Source: Candidatus Electrothrix scaldis (GTDB taxonomy: Bacteria; Desulfobacterota; Desulfobulbia; Desulfobulbales; Desulfobulbaceae). Taken from it: a DNA stretch of 64,000 nt. Positions 54,345 through 62,531 of this stretch are shown one piece after another. A program made the translations under genes and the position numbers. The first letter of the stretch is position 1. Each line of letters opens with the position of its first letter. The stretch spans positions 4,429,501 to 4,493,500 of the forward strand of contig CP138355.1 in the NCBI GenBank assembly GCA_033584155.1, in the 5' to 3' direction. The notes under the pieces were generated by a model. The model had not been told where the DNA came from. It saw only the letters and a program-made list of their open reading frames with translations, and did no database searches.

Positions 54345-56183
54345 ATGCACTTTAATATACAAACTATAAACTACCTGAAAGAATCAAAGCTTTTTTCGCT
54401 TTGCTCAAATACTGATCTTGCTCGCATTGCTCCCTTTATCTCTGAAATTTCTCTCAATACAGGAGATCTCTTATTCTATACCGGAGAGCACGCCGAAAGC
54501 CTGTTCCTGCTCATGGATGGTCAAATTGAAATCCAGTCAGGAAGGAGAATTTTAAACACAATAAAATCAGGAACATTAGGAGAAGAAAGCGTTAATAGAA
54601 AGGGAAAATATCTCACAACGGCTGTTGCACTGCAAGATGCAAAGCTCCTGAAAATTCCACAAAAGCAGCTCCTCCGCTTACTCAAGAAGTACCCAGAGAT
54701 GAAGGACAAGGTCTATTCATCCCTGGTAAATCACCACGCTTACATTAAAATTGAGGATAAGACAAACAAAGAGGTCAAAAAAGACGACGCTGAAATCATC
54801 ACGGTTATCGGCTGGATCTTTGCTATTCTCTTACCCTTAGCGACCTATTATTATGCCGACAATCTCGCCTTTGACTGGAAGAGTAAGATATTCTTAACCG
54901 TTGCCATTGCAACGGTGGTTATGTGGATTTTCAGGCTGGTTGATGAGTATATCCCCAGTATTATGGCTATCATAGCAATACTGGTTCTGGATATAGCGCC
55001 GCCCGATGTCGTCCTCTCCGGCTTTACCTCAGGAAGTTTTTTTATGGCGCTGAGTATTTTTGGGCTTAGTGCCATCCTAACAACGAGTGGGGTAACCTAC
55101 AGAATCGTTATCAATTTATTCAGATTTCTTCCCTTATCGCAATTCTGGCATTCCCTGGCAATCTTTATAACCGGTATCTTTCTTACTCCACTTTTTCCCT
55201 CTGCAAATGGACGTATAGGGATTGCCACACCTATCTTATTGGATATGGCAGAATCTCTTGGTTATAGGAAAGGAGGCAAGGCCGCAACACGTCTTGCCAT
55301 TGCAACCTTTTCTGGTTTCACATTATTTTCCAGCATCTTCCTGAGTAGTAAGTCCATGCATTTTATTGTCTTCGGCATCCTTCCTCTTCAAGTACGGGAA
55401 CGATTCAGCTGGGGATATTGGTTGTATGCCTCCCTGATTGCCGGGCTTGTTCTCATGGGCTTTTACTTCCTCCTAACGCAGGTCATGTTTCAAAACAGTG
55501 ATAAACCGAGGCTCTCCCGAGATATCATAAAAGCGCAGTATGAAGTACTGGGACCGTTATCTGCTCAGGAATGGGCCGCTATCGGCGGTATTGCTCTTTT
55601 TGCTCTGGGTGTTGCGACCTCATCAATCCACAAAATCCAACTCCCCTGGGTGGGTTTTGCAGTTCTCTATCTCATCCTCGTCCTCGGATTTCTTTCAAAA
55701 AGAGACTTCAAAACCCATGTGGACTGGACCTTTCTCCTCTACCTTGGCGCACTCATCGGCCTGATAAAAACAATATCATATCTTGGGCTCGATACCCTGC
55801 TTGGACAGGAATTCGTGTGGTTAGGGAAATATATGAAGGACGATTTTTACCTGTTCGTTCCACTCCTTTCTATCTGCACGATGCTTCTCAGACTCTTTAT
55901 TCCCAATACCGCAACAGTTGCGATTCTTTCCTCTGTTCTCTTTCCTATCGCCCTTTCAAACGGTATCAACCCCTGGATTATCGGATTTATTATCCTTATC
56001 ATGAGTGATTCCTGGATCATGCCCTATCAGTGCTCTTATTACCTTCTCTTTGATGAACTCACATCATCCAGAAAAATTTTTAGCAAGGCTATGATGTTGG
56101 AATTTAATCTCATTTCAATATTTTTCAGAGTAGCTGCAATATATGCCTCCATACCGTTTTGGAAATCAATCGGAATTTTATAA
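54345..56183 (+). CDS. Cyclic-nucleotide-domain / DASS-type anion transporter fusion
   Basis: This 612-residue protein has an N-terminal cNMP-binding-like domain (about residues 10-130: LNTGDLLFYTGEHAESLFLLMDGQIEI ... LGEESV). It is joined to a membrane part with about 11-12 helices that resembles the divalent anion:Na+ symporter (SLC13) family, including the FLTPLFPSANGRIGIATPI segment. Substrates of the family are dicarboxylates, sulfate and similar anions. The regulatory domain fused to the transporter suggests direct ligand control. The substrate is not deducible. Confidence 0.8.
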   Translation: MHFNIQTINYLKESKLFSLCSNTDLARIAPFISEISLNTGDLLFYTGEHAESLFLLMDGQIEIQSGRRILNTIKSGTLGEESVNRKGKYLTTAVALQDAKLLKIPQKQLLRLLKKYPEMKDKVYSSLVNHHAYIKIEDKTNKEVKKDDAEIITVIGWIFAILLPLATYYYADNLAFDWKSKIFLTVAIATVVMWIFRLVDEYIPSIMAIIAILVLDIAPPDVVLSGFTSGSFFMALSIFGLSAILTTSGVTYRIVINLFRFLPLSQFWHSLAIFITGIFLTPLFPSANGRIGIATPILLDMAESLGYRKGGKAATRLAIATFSGFTLFSSIFLSSKSMHFIVFGILPLQVRERFSWGYWLYASLIAGLVLMGFYFLLTQVMFQNSDKPRLSRDIIKAQYEVLGPLSAQEWAAIGGIALFALGVATSSIHKIQLPWVGFAVLYLILVLGFLSKRDFKTHVDWTFLLYLGALIGLIKTISYLGLDTLLGQEFVWLGKYMKDDFYLFVPLLSICTMLLRLFIPNTATVAILSSVLFPIALSNGINPWIIGFIILIMSDSWIMPYQCSYYLLFDELTSSRKIFSKAMMLEFNLISIFFRVAAIYASIPFWKSIGIL

Positions 56184-56188
56184 AAGTC

Positions 56189-57202
56189 ATGAAAAATACA
56201 ATAATTAGACTGTTAACTGTATCTTTCGTTACGATACTTATAATTTTTCTTGTTGTAACCAACCTGAGCAAACCGAGGATACTCGTCCTACACAGTTACA
56301 ATCTTGATTTTACCTGGGTTGAAAATATTAATGTCGGCATCCTCAGGGTTCTGGAAAAGAAGCCCTATTCCATACGGTGGCATTATATGGATACCAAAAG
56401 GAATCCATCACCAGAGTATAAGGAAAAGGCGGGAAGAAATGCCATAAAGGCAATCAATCAGTGGAATCCGAATATTATTATTGCTGTAGACGATAATGCC
56501 CAAAAATTTGTGGCAATGCATTATAACAACAGCAAAGCGATAAATATTGTCTTCACAGGTGTAAATGCCTCTGTTGACACATACGGTTATGATAAAGCGA
56601 AAAATGTAACAGGCATTCTTGAACGCATTCCTTTCCAAGAATTCCGAGAAATCTTTGTGCAAATCTTACCAAAGAATAAACGACGCATTGTCCATATTTC
56701 CGACTCATCAGTCACCTCCCAATTAGTGCATGAAGAATTAACCAATGTGGACTGGAGTCCGCTCAAGCTCGTTAAATCGTTTCAATGCGAAACCTTTAAA
56801 GAGTGGAAAGAGGTCATTAAAAATGTCGACAAAATAGGAGATATACTTCTCGTCACCCATTACCACACCCTTCAGGATGAAAATGGCAAAACAATGAGCC
56901 CAACAGATGTCATGGCGTGGACAGCTGAGAATGTAAAAATACCCGATATCGGCTGTTGGGGATTCTTTGTCAAAGATGGTGGAATGATGTCAATAGCTGT
57001 TTCACCTTATGAACAGGGCGAAGAAGCTGCTAAAATGGCAGTAAAAATTATTGAGGAGAAGATCCCGCCCAACGAAATAGAGGTAAAAATCAACAGCCTC
57101 TATGTCGTCCACATGCGAGGAGACAAACTCAAAGAAAGAAATATATCTCCACCTAAAATGCTGGAAGCATTCGCGAAAGCGACAAATAATTATTACGAAT
57201 AG
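56189..57202 (+). CDS. ABC-type substrate-binding protein, unknown ligand
   Basis: This protein of about 337 residues has an N-terminal hydrophobic signal or anchor (residues about 5-27). The periplasmic binding core has RILVLHSYNLDFTWV, IIIAVDDNAQKFVAMHY and VPFEQ-like VSPYEQGEEAAKMAVKII, which fits the uncharacterised ABC_sub_bind (PF04392) family. The ATG at 56189 is just past the transporter stop. Permease and ATPase genes are not nearby, so it may be a sensor-type or orphan binding protein. Confidence 0.75.
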   Translation: MKNTIIRLLTVSFVTILIIFLVVTNLSKPRILVLHSYNLDFTWVENINVGILRVLEKKPYSIRWHYMDTKRNPSPEYKEKAGRNAIKAINQWNPNIIIAVDDNAQKFVAMHYNNSKAINIVFTGVNASVDTYGYDKAKNVTGILERIPFQEFREIFVQILPKNKRRIVHISDSSVTSQLVHEELTNVDWSPLKLVKSFQCETFKEWKEVIKNVDKIGDILLVTHYHTLQDENGKTMSPTDVMAWTAENVKIPDIGCWGFFVKDGGMMSIAVSPYEQGEEAAKMAVKIIEEKIPPNEIEVKINSLYVVHMRGDKLKERNISPPKMLEAFAKATNNYYE

Positions 57203-57210
57203 GACAAAGA

Positions 57211-57243
57211 GAGAAAAACAGAGAAACTGTTCTCCTGTTTCTC
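57211..57243 (-). terminator. Terminator of the CDF gene
   Basis: On the minus strand GAGAAAC ... GTTTCTC with a 9-base loop is followed by TGTTTTT. It overlaps the end of the CDF gene. The plus-strand side has no T-run. Confidence 0.6.
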
Positions 57244-58210
57244 AGGCGGATGATGAACACTCTGAGCGCTCCGCATCGCCCATCTTTGTCCCATTACCGG
57301 CAGGATGATAATGCACATAGACCTTGCGGAGCATTTCTATCCCCTTCAAGAGCTTACTCTCCACCTGGTCGGCAATTTCATCTCCTTTCCTGACGGTCAG
57401 ATCCCCATCAATGCAGATGGTCAGGTTGACCACGAGGTAGGGTCCAAAACGATGGGCGTGAATATCCTCAATGGCCTCTACCTCGATGACCTCCTCCAGC
57501 AGATCATAAATTTCCCGAGCCAGTTCCTCACTGGGCACATTATCCATCAAATCCGAAGAAGCCTCACGAAGGATGTCCAGGCCTGTCTTCGCCATGATCA
57601 CTGCCACAACAGCTCCGGCTACGGGGTCCACCCAGGGGGCACCCATCTGGCTCAAAGTAATACCGATAGCAGCACCAGCTGAGGCAAAAATATCATTGAG
57701 ATGGTCCTGAGCCAAAGCCTTGATCGCCAAATTTCCCGTCTCCTGCCCGACCTTACGCGCCTGCAACATGAGCAAAATCTTGGTCAAGATGGTGGCTAAG
57801 GCCACATACAGGGCAAACTGCCCTATGGGGTGTGACGGTACGGCGCCGGTAAATAATTTAAAGGCAAAATCTATGGAATCCCAGAAGATCGCTGCACCGG
57901 TGGTGATAACAAAGGCACCGATAACCAAGGCCGCTATGCTCTCAAGCTGGTGGTGTCCATAGGGATGCTCGCAATCTGCCGGTTTTCCAGAAAGCCGAAC
58001 AAATATCTTCACCGCAATAAAGTAGATCACGTCGGAGATTGAATTAATCCCATCGGCCAGCAAGGCCTGGCTATGCCCTATAATACCTGCAACCACCTTG
58101 ACCAGGGCAAGGACGGTGTTGCAAAACAGGCCGACATTCACCACATTTTCGGCTTTTTTCCGGCGATGTTCTGAATTACTACAGCGAAGTGGGCTTAGAA
58201 GTTCAGCCAT
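57242..58210 (-). CDS. Cation diffusion facilitator (CDF) metal exporter
   Basis: This 322-residue CDF protein has six transmembrane helices and a C-terminal cytoplasmic domain (about residues 215-310). The first metal site reads ADGINSISD (residues 52-60), with Asn instead of the more common His, and the second ALAQDHLNDIFAS (D169, H170, D173). A third conserved HPYGHHQLESIA segment is present. Substitutions at these positions track metal choice in the family. Mn2+ or Fe2+ is possible, but that is inference. Its C-terminus has the conserved VHYHPAGN. Confidence 0.9.
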   Translation of the reverse strand: MAELLSPLRCSNSEHRRKKAENVVNVGLFCNTVLALVKVVAGIIGHSQALLADGINSISDVIYFIAVKIFVRLSGKPADCEHPYGHHQLESIAALVIGAFVITTGAAIFWDSIDFAFKLFTGAVPSHPIGQFALYVALATILTKILLMLQARKVGQETGNLAIKALAQDHLNDIFASAGAAIGITLSQMGAPWVDPVAGAVVAVIMAKTGLDILREASSDLMDNVPSEELAREIYDLLEEVIEVEAIEDIHAHRFGPYLVVNLTICIDGDLTVRKGDEIADQVESKLLKGIEMLRKVYVHYHPAGNGTKMGDAERSECSSSA

Positions 58211-58238
58211 GTATATTGTCCGTTCATAAAATTACCAT

Positions 58239-58424
58239 TTAAAAATCTCCTCCTGCCAAGGCCAAGCGTTTCTCATTATACTTTGCAAAAATCAATAAGA
58301 GAAACCAAAGAATATAATAGCAGACAAGAAAGTCCCTCCCTTTCATACCCGGGGTCATGGAGAAGGTAAGATGGACGGTACCTATCTCAAGTTGGAGAAA
58401 GACTATGAACCGCCACATCCACAT
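58239..58424 (-). CDS. Tandem membrane protein, copy 4 (truncated)
   Basis: This 61-residue copy reads MWMWRFIVFLQLEIGTVHLTFSMTPGMKGRDFLVCYYILWF. It matches the N-terminal half of copies 1-3 (the HL-x-x-x-MTP motif and following helix). It lacks the second half and the Gly/Cys-rich tail. Its ATG comes two bases after the copy 3 stop, suggesting coupling. It is either a decayed copy or a short partner. Confidence 0.55.
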   Translation of the reverse strand: MWMWRFIVFLQLEIGTVHLTFSMTPGMKGRDFLVCYYILWFLLLIFAKYNEKRLALAGGDF

Positions 58425-58426
58425 GG

Positions 58427-58855
58427 TCAATCCCCACCACAACCGCCGCAACCACCACCTCCACCACAGCCACTACTTCCTCCACCACAGCCACTACTTC
58501 CTCCACCGCAACCACCTATACTGCTACAGCCACCACTGCTGCCGCCCCCTGAAGTGATCTCTGCGGCTTGGACTAAATAAATAACTCCCCCCACTCCCAT
58601 CATAAACCAGAGAAAATCAAAATGTGACATACCATGCGCCCTTCCCTCAAGATAACGAGCAATTCAAGCAGACAAATAAATAATAATAGGAAGAATAACA
58701 TGCCAATCATTCCATTTTGCGATCCCCAGCAAGATAAACCACAAAAAGAAATAGTATAGCAGGAAGCCTGGCCCTCTAACACCAGGTGTCATTACATTTG
58801 ATAGAACTACTGCTCCGGTTTCACATAACAAAAAAACAATAATACTCGATGCCAC
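58427..58855 (-). pseudogene. Tandem Gly/Cys-tailed membrane protein, copy 3, with in-frame TGA
   Basis: The GTG start at 58853-58855 follows GAGGAGGAGA. The frame reads MASSIIVFLLCETGAVVLSNVMTPG ... IIYLSA, then TGA (58664-58666), then IARYLEGRAHGMSHFDF and a tail with six cysteines separated by Gly/Ser. At the TGA the paralogues have Gly, so a single change GGA to TGA explains it. No frameshift is needed. It is probably a recent nonsense mutation. Readthrough or recoding cannot be ruled out from sequence. Confidence 0.75.
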
Positions 58856-58891
58856 TCTACTCTCCTCCTCATTATATCTGACAAGAATGCC

Positions 58892-59317
58892 TCACCCACC
58901 ACCGCAACCGCCTCCACCGCCGCAACCACTTCCTCCACCACATCCACAGCCGCCTCCGTAGCTACCGCCAGAGCCAAATGTATCGGTACCAAGAACGATA
59001 TATATAATTGTACCGCCGACCATCATAAGTACCAAATAGAAGAAGTTCGACATACCGTACTCTATCCCTTCGAGTATACGAGCAAGCCCAGCGGAACAGT
59101 AAAGCATACTGGGTGCCAGTATTTCTGCTTCGATTAACCTCCCAGCAGCCAGGACAACAAACCAAAGAAAAAAATAATACAGCAAAAAGGCCTGGCCTTT
59201 CACACCAGGGGTCATGCAATGAGAAAGCTTCACTACCACAATTTCACAGAAGGAAAAAAGCAACACGCCTCTTGCAATCTCTTTTATCACCGTATCATCC
59301 ATAAGTAGCTTACCCAT
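58892..59317 (-). CDS. Gly/Cys-tailed membrane protein, copy 2
   Basis: This 141-residue protein has an N-terminal region with HCMTPGVKGQAFLLYYFFLWF, about three hydrophobic helices (residues about 15-30, 43-60 and 92-110) and a C-terminal tail from about residue 115 built of Gly with Cys at 124, 126, 132 and 138. The ATG has AGAGG upstream. The tail could bind metal or be the target of the neighbouring radical SAM enzyme. It resembles TIGR04222-type proteins in layout, a comparison from memory. Confidence 0.75.
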   Translation of the reverse strand: MGKLLMDDTVIKEIARGVLLFSFCEIVVVKLSHCMTPGVKGQAFLLYYFFLWFVVLAAGRLIEAEILAPSMLYCSAGLARILEGIEYGMSNFFYLVLMMVGGTIIYIVLGTDTFGSGGSYGGGCGCGGGSGCGGGGGCGGG

Positions 59318-59345
59318 GTGAGCCTCTAATCATTTTCCACCTATC

Positions 59346-59771
59346 TCACCCTCCTCCACCTCCGCAACCACCACAGCCGCCTCCACCTCCACCGCCGCAG
59401 CCGCCTCCAGAACCACTCATACCTCCTCCTCCACCGCAACCTCCTCCAGTACCAAACCCTCCTCCGGTTCCTTGAGAAAAATTCGCCAGCAGAAGGTAAC
59501 CAACTGGTCCCTCAAACATTGTGCCCCATATACAACCAAACCCCGACAGACCATACTCGTGCCCTGCGATAATACGTGTAACCCCAGCAGAAACGTAAAC
59601 AACTATAGGCACAAGTATCTCCCAGTCGTTTAACTTGGTCATAATCAGCAGGACAAACCAGAGAACAACATAATACAGCAGAAAGTTTGCATCTCCTATG
59701 AGGGGAGTCATAAGTAAAGAAAGATGCACGGCCCCGTATTCAATCAAGATGAACAAAAAACAATTACTCAT
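59346..59771 (-). CDS. Gly/Cys-tailed membrane protein, copy 1
   Basis: This 141-residue protein has hydrophobic helices (residues about 3-20, 30-45, 52-68 and 76-97) with the shared HLSLLMTPLIGDANF motif and a tail (101-141) almost only of Gly with Cys at 112, 125, 133 and 136. Its ATG lies inside the last codons of the radical SAM gene (8-bp overlap), so the enzyme and this protein are translated from one message. This overlap is the best evidence for a functional pair. Confidence 0.8.
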   Translation of the reverse strand: MSNCFLFILIEYGAVHLSLLMTPLIGDANFLLYYVVLWFVLLIMTKLNDWEILVPIVVYVSAGVTRIIAGHEYGLSGFGCIWGTMFEGPVGYLLLANFSQGTGGGFGTGGGCGGGGGMSGSGGGCGGGGGGGCGGCGGGGG

Positions 59772-60792
59772 TCCTAACCACCTCTTTCACTGCTTCAGAA
59801 CGAACATAACACCCAGGATCCCGTGTAAAAGGATCACCATTCTTTGCCATTGCAAGGCATTTCAACCCACCATGACAAGTCCTCGCATGCCTGCATTTTT
59901 CGCAGCCCCGAACAGAAAGGGTATTATCCTGAAGGCGACTGAACAGATCATTGGTCTCGTATATTTCTGCAAGGCTCTGTTCAAAGAGATTACCCACCAG
60001 ATATTCCATCCTTCTACAAGGATAGACATCCCCATTGGGCATGAGGGCAAGCAGGGGTCGTCCGGCAGAGCACCGATACGGTTTTTGAAAGGGAAAGGAA
60101 AGGAATTGCAGGCCCCTGGCAAAAGAAATACGGTTGCGGGTAAAGGGATGATGCAGATTGATGAGCACAGCCAGCCGCAAGAGCCAGATATACTTCCTGA
60201 CCTCAGCAGGTCCAAGGGAAAGCCCCTCTGCATCTCCGGGGCTCGGTATCACCCGATCTGTCCAAAGATGGTTGATATTGAGGCGATTACAAAGAAAGGA
60301 TAATTTCAATATATCCTTATAATTTTTCTTCGTTGCGGTGAAGGAGACACTGGTTCTGATACCTGCGGCGACCAGCTGCCGAATCCCCTGCACAGCCCTG
60401 GTAAAACTCCCCTTTCCCCGGATGAGCTCATGCTTCTCTTTGGTGCCGTCTAAGCTGATTTGCACATAGGCAGGGGGATGCTTTTTCAGGAATTGAATAC
60501 GCTCGGCATCGATATAATGCCCATTGGTGAGGAGGCTATAACCTCGGATCGTTTTCTGCGCATGCACCTTTTCTATGAGGGCCTCAAGGTGCGGGAACAA
60601 AAAGGGCTCGCCACCGGTGAGGGTAAGATGAAGAGGCCCCCGTGACCGGTACCTGGACCGGAATTGCTCAATCTGGGCCAGCACCTGCTCTATCTCTTCC
60701 AGCGAAAGCTCGCTGGCATCCTCATAAGTTTGCTGGTAGCAATGCAGGCAGCGAAGGTTACAGCGATTTGTAATATGCCATTGAAAGATCAT
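59764..60792 (-). CDS. Radical SAM/SPASM enzyme linked to Gly/Cys-rich proteins
   Basis: This 342-residue enzyme has the radical SAM cluster motif CNLRCLHC (C11, C15, C18), the SAM-binding GGEP (60-63), and a C-terminal SPASM domain with cysteines at 241, 259, 297, 300, 306, 312 and 328, enough for two auxiliary [4Fe-4S] clusters. SPASM enzymes usually modify ribosomally made peptides or proteins. The overlapping downstream Gly/Cys-rich membrane proteins are the obvious candidate substrates. It lies 22 bp after a helicase gene. Which modification it makes is not known. Confidence 0.9.
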   Translation of the reverse strand: MIFQWHITNRCNLRCLHCYQQTYEDASELSLEEIEQVLAQIEQFRSRYRSRGPLHLTLTGGEPFLFPHLEALIEKVHAQKTIRGYSLLTNGHYIDAERIQFLKKHPPAYVQISLDGTKEKHELIRGKGSFTRAVQGIRQLVAAGIRTSVSFTATKKNYKDILKLSFLCNRLNINHLWTDRVIPSPGDAEGLSLGPAEVRKYIWLLRLAVLINLHHPFTRNRISFARGLQFLSFPFQKPYRCSAGRPLLALMPNGDVYPCRRMEYLVGNLFEQSLAEIYETNDLFSRLQDNTLSVRGCEKCRHARTCHGGLKCLAMAKNGDPFTRDPGCYVRSEAVKEVVRNE

Positions 60793-60814
60793 AACCTTGC
60801 CCTCAAATCACTAC

Positions 60815-62173
60815 CTACTGCCAACGTGCAAAGATATCTGCCCGGGCAAGACCGGAACGAAGTAGCACCCCGACCTTGCCATCCACATAATCAATAACCA
60901 GGGCCTTCTTACCCTCGGCTGGTCGCATGATCCGCCCCACCACTTGGAGGAGACGGCCCTCAAAACGAATCGGTGTTGCCAGCACCAGGGTGGCAAGACC
61001 AGGGCAATCAAAGCCCTCGCTGATCAGCTGCAAGGTGGAGAGCAGCACCTGGACCTCGCCCTTTTGCACCCGCCGAACAATATCGGCCCGCGCATTCAAT
61101 GAAATACTGCCGGTGAGCATCTCAGCAATAATGCCCTCTTGTTGCAGGCTGTTCAGCAAGGCCTGGCAATGAGCCACCCGATCAGAAACCAGCAGGATGG
61201 TCCCCTCATTGCCCTGCTGGATCATCGCCACCACATCTCCCACAATCTGTTGATTACGCTTCAGGTCCAGAGTCAGGGCCTTGATTAATTTGGGATACTC
61301 CCCGGAATAGGGAGCAAAGAACTCGGTCTCGTGCTGGATAAGATCGGGCCGGACAACCGCGCCTGTTTCAGCCAGCAGACCAGGGTCTACAGCATGGACC
61401 CGGTCGCCCATATAGCTGTAGATGAGCTTGGTCATGCCCATCTCACGGCGAAAGGCCGTGGCAGACAGCCCCAGCATGTAATAGGTATCAAATCCGCTCA
61501 CCACATCGGTGAAAAGAGTCGACGGAACCCGATGGCATTCGTCGACTATGAGCTGACCAAAACGAGGCACCAAGTCATCCAAGCGATTACGAGCCGTGTT
61601 GACAATAGCCACAGTCACAGGCCGGGGATCATAACGGCCACCACCAGCCTGACCAGCCCGGATATTGAGAAAGGCCGCGATGCGCTCCATCCATTGTTCC
61701 AGGAGCTCGCGGGAATGCACAAGGATGATGGTGGGTTGTTTGCGCTCGGCAATGATCTTTAAGGCCATGACCGTCTTGCCGGAACCGGTGCCCGCCTCCA
61801 GCACCCCGAAGGAATGACCCGCAAAGGCCTGGACAGCCTCCTCCTGGTAGGGACGGAGTTCACCCAAAAACTCACAATTGATGGGGGCCACTTTCCGCCG
61901 CTGATCAATCAGGACGGGGTCCTCCCCCATGAAGCGACGGCAAAGAAGGACAGCACGATTACCGAAGCCTCGGGGAAAGACCAGGCTCTGCCCTTCCTGG
62001 CGATAGAAATGGAGTTTTGGTTTGAGCTGTTTGCCTACCCAACGAGAGTAACGTTGGGCATCCAGATATTTGGGATTATCAATGGTCAGCTGCTCTCGGA
62101 TAGTGGTACACAGTTCCTCCGAGGCCCCGCTCAAAAAACACTCTGCGTTCACAATGAGCTGCGCTGCTGCCAT
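60815..62173 (-). CDS. Superfamily II DNA/RNA helicase
   Basis: This 452-residue helicase has a Walker A motif AGTGSGKT at 127-134, a DECH box at 211-214, SAT at 237-239 and a C-terminal motif VI region VVGRIMRP. The arrangement, with a small N-terminal domain, is like XPB/Rad25-type and restriction-associated helicases. The ATG follows GGAGAGGAAA. It is upstream of the radical SAM gene on the same strand, and they may share a transcript, though a functional link is not evident. Confidence 0.88.
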   Translation of the reverse strand: MAAAQLIVNAECFLSGASEELCTTIREQLTIDNPKYLDAQRYSRWVGKQLKPKLHFYRQEGQSLVFPRGFGNRAVLLCRRFMGEDPVLIDQRRKVAPINCEFLGELRPYQEEAVQAFAGHSFGVLEAGTGSGKTVMALKIIAERKQPTIILVHSRELLEQWMERIAAFLNIRAGQAGGGRYDPRPVTVAIVNTARNRLDDLVPRFGQLIVDECHRVPSTLFTDVVSGFDTYYMLGLSATAFRREMGMTKLIYSYMGDRVHAVDPGLLAETGAVVRPDLIQHETEFFAPYSGEYPKLIKALTLDLKRNQQIVGDVVAMIQQGNEGTILLVSDRVAHCQALLNSLQQEGIIAEMLTGSISLNARADIVRRVQKGEVQVLLSTLQLISEGFDCPGLATLVLATPIRFEGRLLQVVGRIMRPAEGKKALVIDYVDGKVGVLLRSGLARADIFARWQ

Positions 62174-62207
62174 GTAGTTTCCTCTCCCTTTTCTTCTTTA
62201 CCTACCA

Positions 62208-62468
62208 ATGCTCTCCCCTACCGTAAAACGCCTTCACCTCGATCCTCAGCCCAAGGGAGGTAACTTGCCTCTGCAAAATAGCATTCTTTCCCTGCGAGGT
62301 CAATTTATTGCCAATGATCCCCTTCGTATCAGAGATTACCATGTCCATACAAGCCTTCGTGATCTTGCCTCAAAAGGAGGGATATTTCTCATGGGAATGC
62401 TCTGGTTAGTTGCACTCTGGAAAAAACGTAGTAGGATAGGCAAAGCAATACGTACACAACACGGATAA
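62208..62468 (+). CDS. Possible small protein, doubtful
   Basis: This 86-codon frame (MLSPTVKRLHLDPQPKGG ... ) has one weak hydrophobic stretch (GIFLMGMLWLVALW, about residues 58-71). No ribosome binding site stands out and I recognise no family. It is the only frame filling the gap between the helicase and the secreted protein gene. Confidence 0.3.
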   Translation: MLSPTVKRLHLDPQPKGGNLPLQNSILSLRGQFIANDPLRIRDYHVHTSLRDLASKGGIFLMGMLWLVALWKKRSRIGKAIRTQHG

Positions 62469-62531
62469 AAGTCTGCGGATAACCTGCGGGTTTTATCTGT
62501 TCTCTCAACAGCTTTTTCTTTGGTCAAATAT

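Follow-up and report, generated by a model that had tools for sequence, protein, structure and literature searches.

Radical SAM enzymes that modify peptides are known, and so are TIGR04222 membrane proteins with Cys-bearing tails. For streptosactin, the accessible text of PMC8172795 describes bonds between sulfur and an alpha carbon that connect Cys to a Gly or Ser three residues further on. PMC12452194 puts forward Cys-tailed TIGR04222 membrane proteins as MNIO substrates. Here we describe a compact cassette in a stretch of 64,000 nucleotides from Candidatus Electrothrix scaldis (hereafter the window), in which the 3′ end of a gene for a radical SAM/SPASM enzyme, stop codon included, shares 8 bases with the start of a gene for a small membrane protein with a Gly- and Cys-rich C-terminal tail. 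An earlier reading of the window (the original prediction) had pointed to this overlap, and it was right about both the overlap and the enzyme class. Based on the comparison of related loci, we think it probable that the enzyme modifies C-terminal tails of membrane proteins, presumably by forming thioethers between Cys and the alpha carbon of Gly or Ser.

Enzyme clade, tailed neighbors and carriers

The enzyme matches PF04055 (7.1e-24) and PF13186 (6.4e-09), in both cases above cut-off, and is by these matches a member of the radical SAM/SPASM class. It contains a CX3CX2C motif at residues 11–18 and seven SPASM cysteines (residues 241, 259, 297, 300, 306, 312, and 328). The three radical SAM cysteines and C241 are kept in all 46 members of the clade described below, C259 in 45, C297 in 44, and the remaining four SPASM cysteines in 43; the exceptions are gaps, save for one Ile at position 259. 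Among the best 25 of 88 matches, no NCBIfam family reaches its own cut-off. The top match, TIGR04340, scores 141.9 bits where 400 are required, which places the enzyme outside the rSAM_ACGX family, and ten relatives of the enzyme score between 124.5 and 185.8 bits with the same model. The eight matches to solved structures include the sactisynthase SkfB, anSME, PqqE, 5wgg and 5v1q (which we take to be CteB and SuiB), and two cytosylglucuronate decarboxylases. A search with anti-phage models returned only a weak similarity to viperin over the radical SAM part, and one scan of 53 candidate stretches revealed no viral relatives.

Related loci were collected from a scan of species genomes (best 80 matches, 79 loci), from the window and from a search of 145 genomes, which gave 108 loci with an identifiable enzyme. 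We considered a protein as tailed if its last 24 residues contain at least two Cys, at least four Gly and at least 65% Gly, Ser and Cys together. With this definition, 45 of the 8553 stop-to-stop open reading frames (ORFs, at least 40 amino acids) in these loci are tailed. They are spread over 40 loci, and in all 40 one tailed ORF overlaps the enzyme gene or sits no more than 82 bp away. The remaining five are additional tailed ORFs in the window (two), in L021 (two) and in L121 (one). This adjacency is beyond chance.

A tree of 85 enzymes, built by a quick search, places the window enzyme in a 46-member clade with a support of 100 in the SH-like approximate likelihood ratio test (SH-aLRT). 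From this tree only we left out 22 loci that score under 136 bits; L025, which lies on the same contig as L056, was dropped from both the tree and the counts. A tailed ORF overlaps or lies within 82 bp of 37 of the 46 clade enzymes, in contrast to 2 of 61 related loci outside the clade (39 in the tree and 22 unplaced). The original prediction had proposed just such a count of proximity across genomes, and its outcome speaks for a link between enzyme and tail. The two outside cases are L110 (Lentisphaerae) and L121 (a Sigynarchaeota archaeon). Within the clade, the tailed ORF lies upstream of the enzyme in 21 loci, downstream in 13, and downstream on the opposite strand in 3; the labels of L022 and L095 are swapped owing to overlap, which does not affect these totals. 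An all-against-all comparison of the loci found no gene common to the clade aside from the enzyme and the tail. The ends of the tails follow the enzyme tree: the tail-end class (including "none") changes 11 times, compared to a mean of 36.0 after shuffling, and none of 200 shuffles was as low, with near-copies contributing to this result.

The tail of clade member L024 runs off the end of its contig. For five other members without an adjacent tail (L065, L068, L073, L078, and L080), a Cys-tailed protein is encoded at another place in the genome. These proteins are TPM-like in L068, L073, L078 and L080, with 5, 3, 2 and 1 Cys, respectively, and tails ending in Cys, Gly and then SSSF or SSF. The L065 genome contains a DUF2207 protein that ends in CSSCGGGGSW, and also a TPM-like protein (L143) with a tail devoid of Cys.

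The same enzyme clade adjoins several kinds of membrane protein. The 37 adjacent carriers comprise 17 DUF2207 proteins, 5 TPM proteins, 8 TIGR04222 proteins, those of 4 Electrothrix loci, the carriers of L101 and L056, and the fragment in L093. TIGR04222 scores above cut-off in all eight scanned carriers, and TPM in all five. Seven of the DUF2207 carriers were scanned directly (L060, L064, L066, L072, L076, L077, and L085, all at the Pfam gathering score), and ten come from a whole-genome search. Direct scanning also found TPM at the gathering score in L069, L071, L074, L098, L102, and L139. Neither Pfam nor NCBIfam has a match to the Electrothrix scaffold. TIGR04222, which requires 43 bits, does not match the tailed protein of the window at E ≤1, nor any protein genome-wide at E ≤0.001, and the Electrothrix scaffold matches the TIGR04222 set only weakly by profile comparison (probability 29.9%). 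A G-x-x-F-L-x-x-Y stretch in the second window copy and in L055 is common to L061 and L067. The scaffold is kin to the Aliikangiella protein of L101, with R66, G70, G74, S76, F78 and G88 invariant in four sequences. The Desulfogranum carrier (L056) is an 87-amino acid protein with two hydrophobic segments.

Three genomes provide an internal control. The DUF2207 proteins adjacent to the enzyme in L060, L064 and L072 carry 6, 6 and 5 tail cysteines, and the second DUF2207 proteins of the same genomes, encoded on a contig other than that of the enzyme, have Gly/Ser tails without Cys in all three cases. In a set of 60 genomes from one family, a TPM substrate (E ≤1e-10) and the enzyme (E ≤1e-45) occur in the same two genomes, one of which supplied the query.

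It is conceivable that the enzyme and the tailed proteins are mere neighbors, with another substrate for the enzyme and tails that arose by low-complexity drift. Conversion of a Gly to a Cys codon is indeed easy (in the case of GGC and GGT, a single substitution leads from GGN to TGY), and for three clade enzymes we found no tailed protein. We nevertheless regard this explanation as very improbable, because the adjacency spans several phyla with different carriers, the tail ends cluster by enzyme subclade, the paralogue tails are free of Cys, and enzyme and tails are jointly absent from two Electrothrix genomes (G001 and G002). The adjacency, the clustering of tail ends and the Cys-free DUF2207 paralogues strongly support the proposal of the original prediction that the tails are acted on by the enzyme, and we consider it highly likely that the tail is the substrate of the enzyme.

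Some loci showed additional features. In L121 (2–2359), two tailed proteins with CGG-repeat ends lie beside a radical SAM/SPASM gene from outside the clade, possibly as an independent case. ORFs with Gly/Ser/Cys repeats were seen about 2 kb from another non-clade radical SAM gene in L105 (1373–1825, Aminicenantes). In L062 (3785–3958, Gastranaerophilales), a 58-amino acid ORF that ends in CSCCKNGASC lies directly upstream of the enzyme gene and could encode a free peptide that serves as substrate. Close to the pair in L057, L058, L061, L067, L070, L095, and L101, we found a nucleotidyltransferase-like gene, which may be a third component. Among these seven genes, that of L067 reaches the NTP_transf_2 cut-off, three match below it and three do not match; no such gene was seen adjoining the cassette in the Electrothrix loci.

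Tail composition and proposed modification

The 44 tails that we compared include three from outside the clade and one that is the downstream part of the third window copy. They contain 2 to 8 Cys with a mode of 6 (16 tails), and 41 of them contain at least four. Successive cysteines are most commonly 3 residues apart (120 of 195 gaps). The original prediction had described four regularly spaced cysteines in the first window copy, and suggested a check of the spacing in other tails. The number is correct; since the gaps in this first tail are 13, 8 and 3 residues, its spacing is not regular. Inspection by eye suggests that the neighbors of Cys are nearly always Gly or Ser. The last Cys is followed by GGGGAD in 14 tails, by GGGGSW in 4 and by G[GS]GGSSSF in 5. 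In the other 21 tails, one to five residues follow, all of them Gly except for an optional D or N at the end. A single-Cys tail (L142) occurs in trans in an enzyme-bearing genome, and L063 contains a two-Cys tail.

We propose that one radical SAM/SPASM enzyme, taken as cytosolic, would act on one or more tailed membrane proteins. The membrane part would be a replaceable carrier, and the enzyme would read the tail. The tail end (CGGCGG[GDN] in the window; CGGGGAD, CGGGGSW or CG[GS]GGSSSF in other subclades) would probably be the recognition handle, and the cysteines of the tail the targets of modification. Gly or Ser would lose an alpha hydrogen to the radical, whereupon the sulfur of a nearby Cys would bond with that alpha carbon (sactionine thioether), and a floppy Gly tail may become a chain of small thioether rings on a membrane anchor. 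The number and spacing of the cysteines, the end classes and the single-Cys tail point to Cys-to-backbone chemistry rather than to a Cys cluster, and to a C-terminal handle. Given the conserved radical SAM and SPASM cysteines, the kinship to SkfB, anSME and PqqE, and the linkages in streptosactin, a series of thioether rings appears to be the most likely product. As to the thioether chemistry by itself, we hold the case to be evenly balanced. Our guess is that the product serves as a rigid tether or as a protein-binding tail.

The enzyme might also act on the tail by another radical reaction, such as formation of links from Cys to the beta carbon of Ser (ranthionine), epimerization, backbone cleavage or C-terminal trimming, or thiazole/oxazole-type oxidation. 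The best NCBIfam models are mixed (ACGX, SbtM thio(seleno)oxazole, NirJ/heme synthesis, GeoRSP), all far below their cut-offs, and the conserved C-terminal end motif is compatible with a trimming or recognition site. However, many tails are dominated by Gly, which has no beta carbon, and Cys is what distinguishes the enzyme-linked DUF2207 tails from those of the paralogues. We judge this set of reactions to be rather unlikely, although still a serious competitor to thioether formation.

The original prediction had suggested that the tails are metallated or form a redox structure. If so, the enzyme would mature this structure or supply its cofactor. The high Cys content (at least four in 41 of 44 tails) and the common CxxC spacing would suit this function, a gene for a cation diffusion facilitator (CDF) adjoins the cassette in Electrothrix, and according to the accessible text of PMC12452194, TIGR04222 tails are proposed MNIO substrates and bufferins, which are other MNIO substrates, bind copper. 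However, G001 and G002 have the CDF gene but no cassette, and PF05114, the model for MNIO enzymes, has no match in the window's own genome. Since the L142 tail has one Cys and the L063 tail two, a thiolate cluster within one tail is hard to accept. We found no direct support for metallation or redox activity and consider both improbable.

Modification of the tails through their cysteines, as preferred here, is challenged by several observations. The set of best 80 matches is not random and contains many close Clostridia, 22 of the loci counted as outside the clade were not placed in the tree, and the five proteins in trans were found by homology to known substrate types. No tailed protein was found for L062, L087 (at a contig edge) and L120, with neither a TPM nor a DUF2207 match for L087 and no TPM match for L120. 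That one of the two positive genomes in the 60-genome test had supplied the query reduces the weight of this test. The last Cys is penultimate in four tails, followed by a single residue. An i+3 ring as in streptosactin cannot be general, because residue i+3 in these tails is mostly another Cys. Finally, a crude charge rule, which counts hydropathy and charge without a topology program (L025 and the partial ORFs WIN_2 and L093_0 left out), predicts a cytosolic tail in 29 of 42 proteins, including 21 of 22 DUF2207 and TPM proteins, but in only 2 of 8 TIGR04222 proteins and 4 of 7 Electrothrix copies. For TIGR04222 tails the periplasm is favored in PMC12452194. The original prediction had set the modification at the membrane; for the window's own scaffold, the charge rule favors neither side clearly.

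The Electrothrix locus and its distribution

Table 1. Features of the cassette and its borders in the window.
Feature	Position	Strand	Basis
Radical SAM/SPASM enzyme, 342 aa	59764..60792	−	PF04055 and PF13186 above cut-off
Tailed membrane protein copy 1, 141 aa	59346..59771	−	ORF; hydrophobic segments, then four-Cys tail ending CGGCGGGGG
Tailed membrane protein copy 2, 141 aa	58892..59317	−	ORF; four Cys; tail end CGGGGGCGGG
Copy 3, interrupted	58427..58855	−	GTG start at 58855; in-frame TGA at 58664–58666; downstream ORF 58427–58630 ends CGGGGGCGGCGGD
Copy 4, tailless truncated remnant	58239..58451	−	ORF list and alignment
Flanking helicase (RadD/XPB-like), cassette border	60815..62173	−	ResIII and Helicase_C above cut-off; RadD and XPB models below cut-off
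Flanking CDF, other cassette border	57242..58210	−	TIGR01297, 207.8 bits against cut-off of 82.35

The array consists of two open copies, one interrupted copy and one remnant (Table 1), and these four sites are the only ones of this small membrane protein family in the 5.09-Mb single-contig genome. Copy 1 encodes a protein with the C-terminus ...CGGGGGMSGSGGGCGGGGGGGCGGCGGGGG. Copy 2 is open but lacks the terminal CGGCGG of the other tails; its counterpart in the closest genome (G005) ends in CGGGGGCGGCGGD. Copy 3 is not a single ORF because of the in-frame TGA, which occupies a position that is Gly in the paralogues. Alignment with the G005 array revealed that the 3′ part of copy 4 is missing, and that this near relative has a full tailed third copy at the same place. 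All three copies in G005 are open and end in CGGCGG followed by G, D or N. The original prediction had counted three paralogues behind copy 1 on the same strand, and three tailed proteins in total. The paralogues are present, but one is interrupted and one truncated; tails are found in copies 1 and 2 and in the downstream part of copy 3, of which that of copy 2 has a deviating end. Since two of the four copies have decayed, the array fits only in part the picture of a diversifying substrate family. The window ORF listing covers ORFs of at least 50 amino acids, so an additional smaller peptide is possible.

Selenocysteine at the TGA of copy 3 is disfavored: the paralogues have Gly at this position, copy 4 has likewise decayed, and Rfam has no match in 57000–62500, although bacterial selenocysteine insertion sequence (SECIS) elements are perhaps outside the coverage of Rfam. 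We read this codon as a nonsense change, with recoding less likely.

Among the 145 genomes searched for tails and enzyme, 8 are from Ca. Electrothrix. Tail matches occur in five of these eight, the window's own genome included, and weakly in two genomes outside the genus (E 2.8e-4 and 6.8e-4). The enzyme is present at 70% identity or more in the same five, the next best being G036 with 43%, and 57 of the 145 genomes hold some relative of the enzyme at E ≤1e-30. In G001 and G002 the CDF gene is present and the gap between the helicase and CDF genes, about 430 bp in G001 and about 30 bp in G002, contains no match to enzyme or tail. Since both genes are missing between the same flanks, enzyme and tails appear to have been gained or lost together. 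The third genome, G003, has no helicase match at the cut-off used and thus offers no view of its site.

Absence of enzyme and tails from three of the eight genomes argues against a core role in cable bacteria. Cable bacteria carry nickel-sulfur periplasmic fibers. A role in these conductive fibers is disfavored, because neither the enzyme nor the tails were found in three of the eight genomes with the thresholds applied; in two of the three, it is the shared site itself that lacks them. The literature that we searched contains nothing on cable bacteria, nickel and radical SAM together. Because G001 and G002 possess the CDF gene in the absence of the cassette, this neighbor is also eliminated as a functional partner in Electrothrix. 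On the far side of the CDF gene (54345–57202), a 612-amino acid ORF overlaps a gene for an ABC_sub_bind protein. On visual inspection, the ORF resembles a transporter whose N-terminus has a domain of the cyclic-nucleotide type; this region is kept near the cassette in G005 and G007.

Comparison with known systems

In the literature we searched, which excludes most subscription papers and preprints, we found no pairing of radical SAM with DUF2207, the TPM domain, ACGX or Electrothrix, and no precedent for a clade of radical SAM enzymes that is linked with the tails of several membrane proteins unrelated to each other. In the accessible text of PMC12452194, radical SAM appears in the reference list alone. 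It may well be, with about as much for it as against, that a single clade of radical SAM/SPASM enzymes forms crosslinks in C-terminal Gly/Ser/Cys tails of otherwise unrelated membrane proteins, as a widespread system of bacteria and perhaps also of archaea. In this view, each subclade would have its own terminal tag, Cys would be added to existing plain Gly tails in the presence of the enzyme, and the product would be an entire membrane protein, not a peptide. If this holds, such radical SAM modification would extend beyond small peptides and provide a general means of remodelling the tails of membrane proteins. It would also open a way into the Gly-rich tails of DUF2207, TPM and TIGR04222 proteins, which are so far unexplained, and the terminal tag, should it suffice for recognition, would be a portable crosslinking tag. 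Together with MNIO enzymes (PMC12452194, as far as its accessible text goes), radical SAM enzymes would represent two chemistries that converge on one kind of target.

Several features connect this system to those already described. Like the enzymes here, the sactipeptide maturases SkfB and GggB are SPASM radical SAM enzymes. Their substrates differ from the putative substrate here, which is an entire membrane protein targeted at its C-terminal end. The precursor type of sactipeptides, a small peptide that loses its N-terminal leader during maturation, does not match the proposed targets, which are tails on proteins with lengths from 87 to 729 amino acids (complete proteins, measured from the first start codon). 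Since the radical SAM motif starts at residue 11, the window enzyme has no space for an N-terminal leader-binding domain. The accessible account of streptosactin describes links from Cys to the alpha carbon of Gly and of Ser, like those proposed for the tails. The name of the TIGR04340 ACGX system suggests a substrate with Cys/Gly repeats, whereas the tails here are not ACGX repeats. The TIGR04222/MNIO systems likewise place Gly/Ser-rich, Cys-carrying C-terminal tails on membrane proteins beside a peptide-modifying enzyme. Our clade shares TIGR04222 carriers with these systems (8 of 37 adjacent carriers above cut-off), and the window's own scaffold, itself without a TIGR04222 hit, has a short motif and the weak profile similarity in common with them. 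It differs in that the enzyme is a radical SAM/SPASM protein, the window's own genome having no PF05114 match that would make the tailed proteins MNIO-modified, and in that most carriers belong to other families.

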